From Mycobacterium sp. (GTDB lineage Bacteria > Actinomycetota > Actinomycetes > Mycobacteriales > Mycobacteriaceae): a stretch of 64,000 nucleotides of DNA. Below are positions 43,648 to 51,061 of this stretch, piece by piece. The DNA is taken from positions 33,772 to 97,771 of the forward strand of contig JAOPVI010000086.1 of NCBI GenBank assembly GCA_025966225.1. The letters run 5' to 3'. The notes below the pieces were generated by a model. That model ran no database searches, had not been told where the DNA came from, and saw only the letters and a list, made by a program, of their open reading frames with translations. The stretch's first letter is position 1, and every line of letters starts with the position of its first letter. The position numbers and the translations under genes are program-made.

Positions 43648-44477
43648 TCACGCCCGGGATACCGCCGAAGCCTCGGCGATCTGTTCGGCCGTCGGCCGCA
43701 CTCCGGTATAGCGCTCGAACTGCTCGGCCGCCTGTAGGGCGATGACCTCGGCCCCGGTGATGACGTTGGCCCCTGCGGCGCGCGCCGCGGTGATCAAGGG
43801 CGTCTCCGACGGCAGCGCAACGACGTCGAACACCGTGTGCGCGTTGGCGATCGCACTGGCCTCGAAGGCCTTTTCGGTCGCCTCGGGCGCGCCTGCCATC
43901 CCGATCGGGGTGACGTTCACGATCACCGATGCGGAACGGGTGCCGACGTCGGCCGCGTAGTCGTAGCCGAGCCGCTCGGCGAGCGCACGGCCCGCGTCCC
44001 CGTTGCGCGCGACGATGACCCCGGAGCCGAAACCATGGTCACGGAAGGCCGCGCCCACCGCGCTCGCCATGCCCCCGCTACCGCGGATCAGCACCGAACC
44101 CGACGAGTCCAGCCGGTACTCGTCGATGAGCCGTTGGACCGCAAGGTAATCGGTGTTCGCCGCGGTGAGCCGGCCGCCGGGCACGGACACGTCGTTGACG
44201 ATGGTGTTGACCGAACCGATGGCGCGCGCTGACTGCTCGACTTCGTCGACCAGTCCGATGACGTCCTCCTTGAACGGCATCGACACCGAGCAGCCGCGGA
44301 TGCCGAGCGCCCGCACCCCGCCGATGGCCGCGGCGATGTCGGTAGTGGTGAACGCCTTGTAGAGGTAGTCGAGGCCGAGTTCGTCATAGAGGTAGTTGTG
44401 GAACCTGGTGCCGATGTTGCTCGGGCGCGCGGCGAGCGAAATGCAGAGTCGAGTGTCCTTCGACAAGGGCGGACGCA

Positions 44478-44478
<1 letters not shown>
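43648..44478 (-). CDS. Shikimate 5-dehydrogenase-like protein (AroE family)
   Basis: CISLAARPSNIGTRFHNYLYDELGLDYLYKAF; SVSMPFKEDVIGLVDE; ANTDYLAVQ; start ATG 44478 overlaps the pat stop (TGATG). Confidence 0.88.
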
Positions 44479-45485
<1,007 letters not shown>

Positions 45486-45962: not shown

Positions 45963-46499
45963 TTGTGTCGGTTAGCAATCCGTACTAACGTCGAACGCAG
46001 GTTGAGTCCGCAGCCGCACGAGGTGTGGCCGATGGCTGAAGGCCACCCCGCCAAGTTTCGGAGTTCTAGCTTGTCCGCCGCAAACACCGCTCCTGTCGCA
46101 CCCACACCCGGTGCGCCGCACAAACCTGCGAGTTTCTCGAGCAGCCTCATCGGAACGGCCATGGTGCTGGTGACGGCGGTCGGCGAGCTCGATGCGTCCA
46201 ACGCCTGGGACCTCGCCGACTACGTCGAAGGCGTGCTGGACGCGAAACGTCGCCTGATCGTTGATCTTCGTGGCCTGAGTTTCTGTGGTACACAGGGCTT
46301 CTCATCGTTGCACCACATCAACGTGGCGTGTTCGCGCAGCGACGTGAACTGGGTGGTCGTACCAGGACGCGAAGTGTCCAGGTTGCTGCGAATCTGCAAT
46401 CCCGAGCGCACCCTACCCGTCGCCGGCACGTTGGACAGTGCCATCGGTGTGGTCAGCAGGCCGCCGCGGAACCACCTCAGGACACTCTCCCGGAATTAG
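45963..46499 (+). CDS. STAS-domain (anti-anti-sigma-like) protein
   Basis: TAVGELDASNAWDLADYVEGVLDAKRRLIVDLRGLSFCGTQGFSSLHHI. True start may be ATG 46032. Confidence 0.85.
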   Translation: MCRLAIRTNVERRLSPQPHEVWPMAEGHPAKFRSSSLSAANTAPVAPTPGAPHKPASFSSSLIGTAMVLVTAVGELDASNAWDLADYVEGVLDAKRRLIVDLRGLSFCGTQGFSSLHHINVACSRSDVNWVVVPGREVSRLLRICNPERTLPVAGTLDSAIGVVSRPPRNHLRTLSRN

Positions 46500-47118
46500 C
46501 GCCTGGCACGCCGGAGCGGGCCGCGACGGACGGGGCCGCCCCCTTGACGTACACGCCGATGGCGACGTCCTCATCCACGTAGCCCGCGGTCTGGTTCAGT
46601 TCGTCGGTCTCTGCGATCAGTGCGTTGGCCTCGTCGCCGGTGAGCGGATAGTCATCGACGCGGTGCCGCCAATGCGCCGCAATGATCGTCGTGCCCAGGC
46701 GAAGTCGTCGACATTCCCGGTCAAGCACGCCGCGCAGCGCAGGCCCACTGAGGTAGTAGGCCACTTCCGACAACACGATCAGGTCGAAGTCCTCGGCAGG
46801 CCACTCCGAGTCGAGGGACAGATGGCGCAGGGTGACGCGGTCTCGTCGGTTGCTGCGGTCCAAACGGGCGCGGGTCGCCTCGAGGGCCGCTTCCGCGACG
46901 TCGGTTGCCGTCACGTGCTCGCATCGGTGGGTGAGGTGTTCGGTGAGCACGCCGACCGAGCACCCCGGCTCGAAGGCATGGCGAAACCCCGGCTTTGGCA
47001 GCATGGCGACGGTGAGCGCGTACTTGCGCTGCTCGTACCACCGTTCGGAGAGCCGCCACGGGTCAGGCGATTCGGCGTACATGTCGACGAAGTACTGGTC
47101 GGGCAGGCGCAGGTTCAC
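46477..47118 (-). CDS. SAM-dependent methyltransferase (NodS-like)
   Basis: DQYFVDMYAESPDPWRLSERWYEQRKYALTVAMLPKPGFRHAFEPGCSVGVLTEHL; LIVLSEVAYYL; GTG start in GTGA overlap. Confidence 0.9.
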   Translation of the reverse strand: MNLRLPDQYFVDMYAESPDPWRLSERWYEQRKYALTVAMLPKPGFRHAFEPGCSVGVLTEHLTHRCEHVTATDVAEAALEATRARLDRSNRRDRVTLRHLSLDSEWPAEDFDLIVLSEVAYYLSGPALRGVLDRECRRLRLGTTIIAAHWRHRVDDYPLTGDEANALIAETDELNQTAGYVDEDVAIGVYVKGAAPSVAARSGVPGANSGRVS

Positions 47119-47882
47119 CGGAACACCACCTCACCCAGCCGTAGCAGTCGCTGGACGGCAAACGGGGGCACCACCGGCTCGAAATCGGATGAAAACGCGG
47201 CGAGCTGCGACTGAAAGACATTGACAGCTGCTCGCTTCCGCGCGGTCGCGGCCGGGTCGAGCGGGATCCTGAACATGCGCTGCCACGGCACGTCCTCGTC
47301 GTCTGGATGCGCCCAGTGCCACATCCAGACCGGGTACTCCAGCGGGGTCGCGCCGACCTGATGGGCCGCCACGCTCGCCGCACGCCCGACGGCCTCGTGG
47401 TCCGGATGCCCGTCGCCTCGCCATGTCGTTGCACACCACGCACCCGTCGGGCCGCTGTCGAGCAGTTGGCCGATCACGTCGGAAAGTTGCGACTCGTGCG
47501 CGCGAAGGTCCCCGTCGGGCAGTCCCAAGAAGATCGGCTCACCGAGCCCCAGGACTGCTGCCGCACGGCATAGTTCGGCGCGCCGGTCACGTTCCAACCA
47601 AATGCGCTCCATGCGCGAGAGGCCGGGATACGCGCCCCCGCCGTCGGTCGCGCACACCACCTGGACGTCGACGCCGCGCGCACGCAATGCGGCCGCCGTC
47701 GCTCCGAAGCCGAACGTCTCGTCGTCGGGGTGCGGAGCAACAAGGACCAGCCCGGGACATTCGTCCAGGTTCAGTTCGGGAAACTCCCGCTGCCAGGCGA
47801 GCCACGTGGTGGTCGGCGTACCTCCCGACGCGACCGGGGCAGCCGCGAAGCGAGCGCCGTTCTCGCACCACCCGGCTTTCAC
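47115..47882 (-). CDS. PIG-L/LmbE family deacetylase
   Basis: LVLVAPHPDDETFGFGATAAALRARGVDVQVVCATDGGG; GDGHPDHEAVGRA; GTG 47882 in GTGA overlap. Confidence 0.93.
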   Translation of the reverse strand: MKAGWCENGARFAAAPVASGGTPTTTWLAWQREFPELNLDECPGLVLVAPHPDDETFGFGATAAALRARGVDVQVVCATDGGGAYPGLSRMERIWLERDRRAELCRAAAVLGLGEPIFLGLPDGDLRAHESQLSDVIGQLLDSGPTGAWCATTWRGDGHPDHEAVGRAASVAAHQVGATPLEYPVWMWHWAHPDDEDVPWQRMFRIPLDPAATARKRAAVNVFQSQLAAFSSDFEPVVPPFAVQRLLRLGEVVFR

Positions 47883-48820
47883 CTGGCCGCCACCCGTCCC
47901 AAGGCGGCGAGGTCCCGCTCGGCGTGACTCTGCCGCACGTACATCGTCAAGTCGGCGACACGCTGCGCGTGCTTGGTATCCAAGGCCAAAGGTGCTGGGC
48001 CCAATGCCCTTCCGGTACGCGTGATCGCCTCGTCGACGGCGTGTTCGACGACGGCACGAACCCGACGGGCGATCAGTTCGGCCCGGTCGTCGGGGAGCTG
48101 GGCATCGATGTAACTCGCCGCACACGCGAGTATCGCTTCGGCGGCGGCCAGCGCTGCGTCGACCGCCCCGAGGTGGGCGTGGGTGTGAACGTCGTCGCTG
48201 CCGTTGCGGTATTCGTCGCCGACCGCACGGTAGAGCGGGGCGGCCACGCCGCGTGCGCCACCCAGCCAGCACGCCGCCACTCCCACCGCGCCGTGCCAGA
48301 AACCAGGGCGGTCGAGATACTGTCCCGGTCGCCCGACGGGCGTGGCCACTGCATTGGTGAACTGCACGGATCTGGTATCGCTGGCGCGCATTCCGGCGTT
48401 TCGCCAACTGCTCGTCAACGGCCTTACTTCGGCCTGATTCAGCTCGACGGCATACAGACCGCGGGTGTTGTCGTGACGCCGCGCGGTCACCAGGGCATGC
48501 GTGCACAACTTCGCTCCAGAACACCAGGCCTTGGTGCCCTCGAGGACTGAGTTGGACGTTTGCTCATCGACGCGCAGAACCGCGTCCGGCGCCTCGGCGG
48601 CCCACACCCCCCACAACTGTTCCCGCGATGGGGGCGGGCCATCGAGCTCGGCCAGGATCGCCACGGCGTCGGTGTGCGCCTCGGCCAGGCGCCCTGCCAC
48701 CACGTCGTATTCGGTGAGCGCCGCCAGCTTCGACAGCCGCTTGCCAGTCTGGCCGGAACCCGGGGCGGGAAGGTCGAGCTCTCCGGCTTCGAGCCAGCGC
48801 CAGACCAATTCGGCGCTCAC
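47879..48820 (-). CDS. Acyl-CoA dehydrogenase-like protein
   Basis: LEGTKAWCSGAKLCTHALVTAR; ASDTRSVQFTNAVA; C-terminal helical DTKHAQRVADLTMYVRQSHAERDLAALG; GTG 48820. Confidence 0.88.
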   Translation of the reverse strand: MSAELVWRWLEAGELDLPAPGSGQTGKRLSKLAALTEYDVVAGRLAEAHTDAVAILAELDGPPPSREQLWGVWAAEAPDAVLRVDEQTSNSVLEGTKAWCSGAKLCTHALVTARRHDNTRGLYAVELNQAEVRPLTSSWRNAGMRASDTRSVQFTNAVATPVGRPGQYLDRPGFWHGAVGVAACWLGGARGVAAPLYRAVGDEYRNGSDDVHTHAHLGAVDAALAAAEAILACAASYIDAQLPDDRAELIARRVRAVVEHAVDEAITRTGRALGPAPLALDTKHAQRVADLTMYVRQSHAERDLAALGRVAAR

Positions 48821-49545
48821 GCTGATTCCCGGCCTGCGCGAATGCCCACGGATCTGAGGTGGCTCGCGAAACCGTGTGGCGCTCGGCCCACCTGCCGCGC
48901 CGAGGTCACCACCGACAGCTGTTCGTCGCGATGGATGCGACAACCCGCCTGCTCGAATCGCCGTACGAGCTCGACGTCCTCACCGGTCGCCAACGGGGCG
49001 AACCCACCTACCCGCCAATACGCGTCGGCGCGAAATCCCATGTTGGCTCCGTGGATGTGACCGTGCTCACCGCCGCGACGCTTCGCGCGATATGCGTTCA
49101 GATACATGCGAGCGACTGTCGCGGGCACGCGCCGCCAGTTCGCGATGCGGACGACGCCAAGCACCATGTCGGCACCGGACTCGGTCTGCTGGACCAGCCA
49201 ATCGGCGTCGACGCGACTATCGGCGTCGGTGGTGGCGTACCAGATGCGTGATTCATCGGTCAGCTGCTCACTGCAAAAGCCCCGCGCGTATTCGAAGCCC
49301 GCCCGCCGGGCAGCCCCCACATTGCGGACCTCGACTTCGACGAAATGCACGTCGGCGCCGAAGTCTCCTGCGAGGTATCGACTCTGGTCATCACATGCGT
49401 CGAGCACGACGACGATGAGCACGGGAACGCGCAGACACGCCGCGGCCGTCACCATCGCCTTGACGCACTCCGGCAAGTTGGTCGACTCATTGTGCGCGGG
49501 TATGACGACCACGGCCTGCTCACAGGTCAGCCCGGTATTTCCCAC
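48817..49545 (-). CDS. Family 2 glycosyltransferase
   Basis: VVVIPAHNESTNLPECVKAM; YATTDADSRVDADWL; GANMGFRADAYWRVGGFAPLATGEDVEL; GTG 49545 preceded by GAGGAG. Confidence 0.92.
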   Translation of the reverse strand: MGNTGLTCEQAVVVIPAHNESTNLPECVKAMVTAAACLRVPVLIVVVLDACDDQSRYLAGDFGADVHFVEVEVRNVGAARRAGFEYARGFCSEQLTDESRIWYATTDADSRVDADWLVQQTESGADMVLGVVRIANWRRVPATVARMYLNAYRAKRRGGEHGHIHGANMGFRADAYWRVGGFAPLATGEDVELVRRFEQAGCRIHRDEQLSVVTSARQVGRAPHGFASHLRSVGIRAGRESA

Positions 49546-49570
49546 GGCTAGCTCCTCGCTCCTTCGGATG

Positions 49571-49598
49571 CTGGGCATCCAATGTCAAAGATGCCCAG
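49571..49598. promoter_or_regulatory. Inverted repeat CTGGGCATC-N10-GATGCCCAG upstream of the GT2 cassette
   Basis: 9-bp perfect arms 26 nt upstream of the GT2 start. Confidence 0.55.
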
Positions 49599-49791
49599 GA
49601 AGTCCATGGGCTTGAACTAGGGCGCGGGTAACGGTGCAACTGCCGAATCACTTCAGATGCCGATTCGGTCGCGCACATGTGTACCCGCCATCGCGAGCCG
49701 AGAAACGGGTGACTCGTTTCGAGGTCTGCCCGGCAGGGTAGCCACTGCACGAAAGACGCACGTCGACCCACCGGAGCCGGAGGCGATCAAG

Positions 49792-50160
49792 ATGTCGGAC
49801 GTTCAACACGACGAGCCACGGTCACCGGATCGGTCGGCCGACAACGACGCACACTCCCACGGCGCCAGAACATTCTGGAACTGGACGCTCGCACTCTTGG
49901 CCGTGCTCGGAGCATTGGCCGTCGTGGCCTTCGCATATCTCAGTGTGATGGGCACGGCCGCCTGCACCGACGGGCCGTGCGGGGGTACCGGCCCTAGTGA
50001 ATTCGTGTTCAGCCTCATTCTGTACGGACCGCCGATCGTCGCCGTCGTCGGTGTGCTGCTGTCCTTCCTGACCGCCAAGCACCGGCTGGGGTTCCTCGTA
50101 CCGGTATGCACTTGGGCCGCGACGGCAATCGCCTTCGTCATACTGGTGACCACGTTCTAG
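49792..50160 (+). CDS. Small membrane protein, unknown function
   Basis: 122 aa from ATG 49792 with three hydrophobic segments. Confidence 0.65.
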   Translation: MSDVQHDEPRSPDRSADNDAHSHGARTFWNWTLALLAVLGALAVVAFAYLSVMGTAACTDGPCGGTGPSEFVFSLILYGPPIVAVVGVLLSFLTAKHRLGFLVPVCTWAATAIAFVILVTTF

Positions 50161-50164
50161 CGCA

Positions 50165-51061
50165 TCACGACGCCTCCACCATCGCACCGCTGTGAATGCC
50201 CGCGCGCCCGAGTGCGTCGACCACGAGCACTCGCAGTCGCCGTCCTACGTCGAATTGCTTGCCCGGCAACGTCCGGGCCACCATCCTGACCTTGATCTCG
50301 TCGACTCCGATGCTTTCCACGCCCATTACTGCGGGCTCGTCCAGCAAGAGCTCCGGAAGTGTGTCGTCCTTCATCGCGGTCGCCGAAACACCGCGAAGGA
50401 CATCGGTGACCTTGGTCAGATCCGCCGTCGCCGGCACAGGCACGTCGATCACCGCGCGCGCCCAATCCTTGGATAGGTTGAGCGACTTGACGATCTGACC
50501 GTTGGGCACGGTGTAGACCTCGCCATCGCCGGTCCGGAGCTTCGTGACACGAAGGGTCACGTCTTCGACCGTGCCGCGAGCGTCGTCGGACGAACCTGTG
50601 ATGGTCAACTGAACGAGATCCCCAAAGCCATATTGTTTTTCGGTGATGATGAAGAATCCACTCAAGAGGTCCTGCACTATTCGTTGAGCTCCGAAGCCGA
50701 ACGCAGCGCCCAATACCGCTGCCGGCGCGACCAGTGATCCAACGGGCAATCCGAAGGCATCGATGATGTCGACCGACACCACGACGTACAGCACCGCGAT
50801 GGACACCGACGAGATCACCGACGCGACAGCTTGACGATGCTTGACGGCTTCGGACTGCACGGCGTCTTGCGTGGAGCCTGCGAGCCGGCTACTGATCTTG
50901 GCGGCGATGCGGCGCAGCACGCGGGTCGCGACGACCGTGGCGATCACCACCACGACGATGTGAAGTCCCTTCGTCGCGATCCAGTGGCCGAACTCCGATG
51001 ACCACAGTCCGGTCCAGGTCGCTCTCGGCGAGACTGCGTGAAAAGTATTCATAGACTTCAT
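50165..51061 (-). CDS. MscS-family mechanosensitive ion channel
   Basis: PAAVLGAAFGFGAQRIVQDLLSGFFIITEKQYGFGDLVQL; VEDVTLRVTKLRTGDGEVYTVPNGQI. Confidence 0.94.
   Translation of the reverse strand: MKSMNTFHAVSPRATWTGLWSSEFGHWIATKGLHIVVVVIATVVATRVLRRIAAKISSRLAGSTQDAVQSEAVKHRQAVASVISSVSIAVLYVVVSVDIIDAFGLPVGSLVAPAAVLGAAFGFGAQRIVQDLLSGFFIITEKQYGFGDLVQLTITGSSDDARGTVEDVTLRVTKLRTGDGEVYTVPNGQIVKSLNLSKDWARAVIDVPVPATADLTKVTDVLRGVSATAMKDDTLPELLLDEPAVMGVESIGVDEIKVRMVARTLPGKQFDVGRRLRVLVVDALGRAGIHSGAMVEAS

Follow-up and report, generated by a model that had tools for sequence, protein, structure and literature searches.

A four-gene cassette on the minus strand of a mycobacterial genome encodes, in this order, a family 2 glycosyltransferase (GT2), a flavoenzyme with the acyl-CoA dehydrogenase (ACAD) fold, a de-N-acetylase of the PIG-L/LmbE family (PIGL in gene orders) and a NodS-like methyltransferase (MT). 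It lies in a 64,000-nucleotide stretch of DNA from Mycobacterium sp. (assembly GCA_025966225.1, contig JAOPVI010000086.1, positions 33,772 to 97,771), referred to below as the window, and the host genome is 6.3 Mb in size. An earlier reading made from the sequence alone had singled out the cassette as a candidate for an undescribed pathway. Our analysis indicates that the four genes form a functional unit that seems to be induced by the general stress response, and we put at about even the chance that they constitute a general-stress operon making a deacetylated, N-methylated and flavin-oxidised amino-sugar compound.

Conservation of the cassette

The four genes, in window coordinates, are as follows.

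48817..49545, minus strand: GT2 gene, 242 aa, GTG start, with ribosome-binding site GAGGAG at 49552-49557, 6 nt before the start
47879..48820, minus strand: gene for the ACAD-fold flavoenzyme, 313 aa, without the classical catalytic Glu, PF02770
47115..47882, minus strand: gene for the PIG-L/LmbE-family zinc de-N-acetylase, 255 aa, PF02585
46477..47118, minus strand: gene for the NodS-like class I S-adenosylmethionine-dependent methyltransferase, 213 aa, PF05401

The cassette is genuine and not an artefact: the open reading frames, the 4-nt GTGA overlap at each of the three junctions, GAGGAG ahead of the GTG start and a 9-bp inverted repeat upstream had all been described in the earlier reading and were all recovered, the repeat being exact. 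Its closest relatives in the collection of named genomes are Mycobacteriaceae throughout. Because a broad alignment of the ACAD-fold protein was too diverse for scanning the collection, a narrower alignment was used, and 80 loci, all from mycobacteria, were kept. The exact order GT2-ACAD-PIGL-MT is found in 45 of these 80 loci, mostly with 4-nt RTGA overlaps, and the order PIGL-GT2-ACAD-MT in two; across the set, such −4 RTGA junctions are seen repeatedly at each of the three boundaries. A 4-nt overlap is in itself ordinary for operons, but the conservation of these overlaps is not. The ACAD gene is present in 82 of 149 genomes of the same genus, and co-occurrence with it is nearly complete for PIG-L (67/68 genomes), GT2 (55/57) and the methyltransferase (52/53), with Fisher p values, not corrected for kinship, of 4e-26, 1e-17 and 2e-17, respectively.

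Two side observations concern variation within the genus. Some slow-growing mycobacteria, among them M. simiae, M. asiaticum and M. palustre, have the ACAD gene but lack the remaining three, and at five such loci (L063, L077, L078, L086 and L121) a gene of the EEP phosphatase/nuclease family follows it, a pattern that suggests stepwise loss or a role of its own. Three genomes (G324, G384 and G408) hold a second or alternative version of the cassette, about 38 % identical to that of the window, which suggests that these versions were gained horizontally, by independent acquisition.

Conservation reaches far beyond close relatives, to at least four phyla: the cassette was seen in Actinomycetota, Pseudomonadota, Deinococcota and a cyanobacterium. 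Most of the 20 loci of a wider actinobacterial set have the full set of functions in changed gene order. All four functions are encoded on annotated plasmids of Acinetobacter, Legionella, Deinococcus radiophilus, Paracoccus, Comamonas and Sulfitobacter; on a Nostoc plasmid, ACAD-PIGL-MT is accompanied by a convergent GT2 gene, and annotated plasmids of Pandoraea, Roseomonas, Kitasatospora and Deinococcus radiodurans have ACAD-PIGL-MT without an annotated GT2 gene. Such rearranged orders with the set of functions kept are as expected of a shared pathway. At seven Rubrobacter-type loci and on a Rubrobacter plasmid, PIG-L was not detected and a NodB-type polysaccharide deacetylase (PF01522) stands beside the ACAD and methyltransferase genes; these loci additionally carry a Pyr_redox_2 flavoprotein and a GT2. 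Since this deacetylase is not homologous to PIG-L and occupies its slot, it provides the best evidence for a sugar deacetylation step. On Acinetobacter plasmids that carry the cassette, one locus (L036) has insertion sequences and a trehalose-6-phosphate synthase gene adjoining it.

Enzyme families

The family assignments of the sequence-only reading were recovered by Pfam for GT2, PIG-L and NodS, and for the ACAD-fold protein through its middle domain only, at the cut-off. Judged from the alignments, the catalytic motifs of the GT2, PIG-L and methyltransferase proteins are intact, and family motifs are kept in all four proteins. The GT2 protein (PF00535, E 2.5e-12) conserves D107xD109, E189-D190 and R80 at 95-100 % among 84 homologues, and its AlphaFold2 (AF2) model (predicted local distance difference test, pLDDT, 86) is a small, soluble GT-A fold carrying the DxD and ED motifs, in which no transmembrane-type extension was seen. 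The PIG-L protein (PF02585, E 2.2e-26, 93.3 bits) belongs to the PIG-L/LmbE zinc deacetylase superfamily, with HPDDE (51-55; H51/D53/D54) and the H-x-D-H residues H159/D161/H162 conserved at 95 % at least. It fails the equivalog cut-offs for MshB, BshB1, BshB2 and Mca (182-277 bits), with a best score of 49.8 bits for BshB2. The methyltransferase is a member of the wider NodS family (PF05401, E 4.3e-15, 56.5 bits against a cut-off of 24), with structural relatives in PDB 4isc (1.1e-27) and NodS 3ofj (2.9e-11) and with conserved DPW, E-x-G-C-S-x-G and D73; neither it (63.8 bits) nor its Rubrobacter homologue (74.6 bits) reaches the NodS equivalog cut-off of 300 bits. Equivalog assignments to mycothiol, bacillithiol, mycofactocin, arsenosugar glycosyltransferase, SfnB and DszC were likewise rejected, curated cut-offs not being reached.

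The ACAD-fold protein is probably a flavin monooxygenase-like enzyme. Its sole Pfam match is to the middle domain PF02770 (5e-08), and its AF2 model (pLDDT 92) has the alpha-beta-alpha ACAD fold with a Foldseek probability of 1.00. The lowest Foldseek E-values are to DszC, TdsC, MsuC and the amino-sugar nitrososynthases, and the profile ranking is also led by DszC-type flavin mononucleotide (FMN) monooxygenases; NCBIfam scores are 31 of 430.9 bits for SfnB and 31.4 of 850 for DszC. Q297, R255 and G274 are invariant across 122 homologues. In an alignment with butyryl-CoA dehydrogenase the position of the catalytic Glu falls on the invariant Gln297, or on the variable Ser298 if a one-residue gap is removed, and residue 170, placed by eye as the isovaleryl-type base position, is variable. 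Across the 122 sequences the catalytic Glu is thus conserved neither at the position of E376 of medium-chain acyl-CoA dehydrogenase nor at the isovaleryl-type E254 position. Acyl-CoA dehydrogenation is therefore judged unlikely, the Glu base being absent and the nearest profiles being those of FMN monooxygenases, and the acyl oxidation step proposed in the sequence-only reading is not supported. An ACAD fold with a missing Glu base fits a two-component flavin monooxygenase of the DszC, SfnB or nitrososynthase kind, and our preferred, unproven reading is that this enzyme oxidises an amino sugar in a flavin-dependent reaction. Two Deinococcus loci (L039, 1199-3538; L126, 3048-5297) encode the ACAD-fold protein fused to an N-terminal region of about 370 aa with weak matches to GH-A glycosidases (GH53/GH42-type), and this weak similarity is a further pointer to sugars.

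Predicted SigF promoter and stress-gene neighbourhood

The mycobacterial cassette is very probably transcribed by the general-stress sigma factor SigF, as predicted from promoter motifs. The strict motif (GTTT-N14-18-GGGTA) matches exactly twice in the 64-kb window, both times ahead of the cassette and with the two copies in back-to-back orientation; the cassette thus has a sequence of the SigF-regulon type (GTTT-N14-19-GGGTA) before it.

49706-49682, minus strand: predicted SigF promoter of the cassette, GTTT-N16-GGGTA, strict motif match
49716..49740, plus strand: divergent predicted SigF promoter, GTTT-N16-GGGTA, strict motif match

When the variants GGGAA and GGGCA, described together with the consensus in M. 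smegmatis (PMC4694148), are included, the motif is found within 150 bp of the start in 19 of 52 relatives, the 5' end of GTTT lying mostly at −33 to −40; shuffled controls gave a mean of 0.4 and a maximum of 3. In alphaproteobacteria the EcfG motif was present at one of seven sites tested, and EcfG control is therefore not claimed. Behind the divergent promoter lies a short plus-strand gene (49716-50160) without a Pfam match, and this position makes a role in the same stress response probable.

Stress genes recur around the cassette. Among the 80 mycobacterial loci, DNA topoisomerase IB (TopIB) is found nearby in 29 and catalase in 22; Cupriavidus has catalase, a PA2169-family gene, a GlgE-type gene and TopIB as neighbours, and catalase adjoins the cassette in Sulfitobacter and Novosphingobium. 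In Comamonas the arrangement is otsA-ACAD-PIGL-MT-GT2-otsB with overlapping reading frames, and in Legionella the cassette is located after otsB. Deinococcus radiophilus and one further actinobacterium have an MscS gene next to the cassette. In Acinetobacter baumannii, where the record gives the homologues in the order ACAD-PIGL-MT-GT2, ACICU_02432-02435 are listed as one operon in a transcriptome report and are 31-62-fold lower in two colistin-dependent mutants, with otsA, otsB and catalase declining together with them (PMC5660220). Neither the SigF promoter, nor this trehalose, catalase and TopIB stress setting, nor the co-regulation in A. baumannii had been noted in the earlier reading.

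Proposed pathway and alternatives

We hypothesize that the soluble GT2 would move an N-acetyl-hexosamine (HexNAc) from a nucleotide sugar onto an acceptor, that the PIG-L enzyme would then strip the acetyl group and that the NodS-like enzyme would methylate the freed amine. The ACAD-fold flavoprotein would oxidise the amino sugar, a reduced-flavin-dependent oxygenase in the style of the nitrososynthases or DszC being likelier than acyl-CoA dehydrogenation. We infer, then, a route of HexNAc transfer, de-N-acetylation, N-methylation and flavin oxidation to a protective small molecule, a glycoside or amino-sugar conjugate whose synthesis would accompany that of trehalose and catalase during osmotic, desiccation or oxidative stress. 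A deacetylated, N-methylated product had already been proposed in the sequence-only reading, and this deacetylase/N-methyltransferase logic is independently supported by the NodB-type PF01522 protein in the place of PIG-L at Rubrobacter-type loci. More tentatively, and with less confidence than in the outline above, we suggest that the product is an undescribed, widespread stress metabolite, namely an amino-sugar glycoside, N-methylated and flavin-oxidised, with trehalose or trehalose-6-phosphate perhaps as its core, that the operon is horizontally mobile across four phyla and that the ACAD-fold protein has turned amino-sugar oxidase or oxygenase.

Several points weigh against this proposal. 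Foldseek template modelling (TM) scores for the ACAD-fold protein rank true acyl-CoA dehydrogenases (0.83-0.84) above DszC (0.75); they thus favour the classical enzymes, and the monooxygenase reading therefore draws its support from residues, sequence profiles and E-values. No flavin reductase was found linked to the cassette in mycobacteria, and the fold search with GT2 discriminated neither donor nor acceptor. Thirty-three of the 52 relatives have no SigF pattern within 150 bp, and the A. baumannii response comes from colistin-dependent, lipid A-defective mutants and not from a direct stress test (PMC5660220). In some slow-growing mycobacteria the ACAD gene is kept by itself or together with PIG-L, so that the enzymes may be partly separable.

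Structural likeness (TMq up to 0.84) to true acyl-CoA dehydrogenases, the ACAD annotation and an EEP-family (phosphodiesterase-like) gene found after the cassette in 22 mycobacterial loci would suit a glycolipid route of the kind raised in the earlier reading, in which a lipid-bound sugar loses its acetyl group and gains a methyl or acyl group, and an acyl chain is desaturated by the ACAD-fold enzyme. We consider this unlikely, since neither of the acyl-CoA dehydrogenase base positions has a conserved Glu, the listed recurrent neighbours in mycobacteria include no acyltransferase, acyl carrier protein or electron-transfer flavoprotein gene, and the GT2 model has no transmembrane-type extension. 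Somewhat less likely again is that the four enzymes modify a surface or storage polysaccharide, a stress-induced glycan built with additional glycosyltransferases. Novosphingobium and Paracoccus do have extra glycosyltransferase genes next to the cassette, 24 mycobacterial loci have GT4-like genes in its vicinity and the Rubrobacter-type deacetylase is of the NodB type, but most cassettes have no polymerase, flippase or extra glycosyltransferase beside them and the GT2 of the window is small and soluble. That PIG-L is a Mca- or Bst-like amidase, with the flavoenzyme and the methyltransferase clearing adducts in the detoxification of low-molecular-weight thiols or amides, seems improbable: its relationship to BshB2, MshB and Mca and the oxidative-stress neighbours, catalase for example, would fit, but its scores are far under the BshB, MshB and Mca cut-offs, complete cassettes include a dedicated GT2 and a NodB-type sugar deacetylase is able to occupy the PIG-L slot. 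That there is no pathway at all, merely four stress genes under a common promoter, is very unlikely, for although many stress-related genes cluster nearby and some species have the ACAD gene alone, this would leave the near-complete co-occurrence, the changed orders and the function-preserving swap of deacetylases unexplained.

The amino-sugar pathway that we favour has partial parallels, and the cassette works like a shortened form of NodC/NodB/NodS or MshA/MshB logic while failing the curated membership tests. As in Nod factor synthesis, it combines a GT2, a sugar N-deacetylase (of the same PF01522 type at Rubrobacter-type loci) and a NodS-family N-methyltransferase. Its GT2, however, is small and soluble as against a processive membrane synthase, PIG-L mostly stands in for NodB, there is no NodA acyltransferase but an extra flavoenzyme, the context is stress rather than symbiosis and the methyltransferase is below the NodS equivalog cut-off. 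With mycothiol and bacillithiol synthesis (MshA-MshB, BshA-BshB) it shares a glycosyltransferase followed by a PIG-L-family de-N-acetylase, but MshA and BshA are GT4 enzymes and that of the cassette is a GT2, its PIG-L is far under the MshB and BshB cut-offs, and it has no ligase or acetyltransferase and includes a methyltransferase and a flavoenzyme. Nitrososynthases oxidise the amine of amino sugars; these enzymes (ORF36, KijD3, DnmZ), together with DszC/TdsC and MsuC, are nearest to the ACAD-fold protein by profile and Foldseek E-value and likewise lack the canonical catalytic Glu, but identity is about 15-19 % and the protein of the cassette, at 313 aa, has a shortened N-terminal domain. 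The A. baumannii genes ACICU_02435-02432 are the same four genes in the order ACAD-PIGL-MT-GT2, known as rows of a transcriptome table; searches of the text of that paper turned up no function or pathway for them (PMC5660220).

Those A. baumannii expression and synteny data were all that we found on the cassette genes in the open-access literature, and no described pathway for them turned up there; as most subscription journals lay outside this search, the label of an undescribed pathway is provisional. The cassette thus provisionally appears novel as a pathway built from known kinds of enzyme. If the proposal is correct, many non-tuberculous mycobacteria, A. baumannii, Deinococcus and soil proteobacteria use these four enzymes to make an unknown protective metabolite under general stress, it becomes testable what joins trehalose in surviving desiccation and oxidative stress, and an ACAD-fold flavoenzyme everywhere annotated as an acyl-CoA dehydrogenase joins amino-sugar chemistry.

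Other features of the locus

The STAS, MscS and TopIB genes that the earlier reading had placed around the cassette were confirmed there by Pfam. The repeat and two of these neighbours are located as follows.

49571-49579/49590-49598: 9-bp inverted repeat with exact arms, within the predicted mRNA leader of the cassette
50165..51061, minus strand: MscS-type channel gene, PF00924
51180..52178, minus strand: TopIB gene, PF01028/PF21338, a recurrent neighbour of the cassette

The inverted repeat was ruled out as a conserved operator because its sequence is not common to the relatives. It belongs to a leader with a predicted fold of −62.9 kcal/mol (z −4.4), and the interval from the SigF promoter to the GT2 start contains stable hairpins both in the window (49540-49680) and in three close relatives (L047, L050 and L051, 7186-7236), with arms of 9-23 bp that differ in sequence; such a hairpin leader is possibly mRNA-stabilising. 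No phage match was found. At 37 mycobacterial loci (L089, 7206-7817, and 36 others) the cassette has a divergent nucleotidyltransferase-like gene (PF14907/DUF2204) as its neighbour. Elsewhere in the window (43648-45476, minus strand), a gene for a GNAT acetyltransferase with a cAMP-binding domain (Pat-like) overlaps by 4 nt a shikimate-dehydrogenase-like gene, for which Shikimate_dh_N is the sole domain match.

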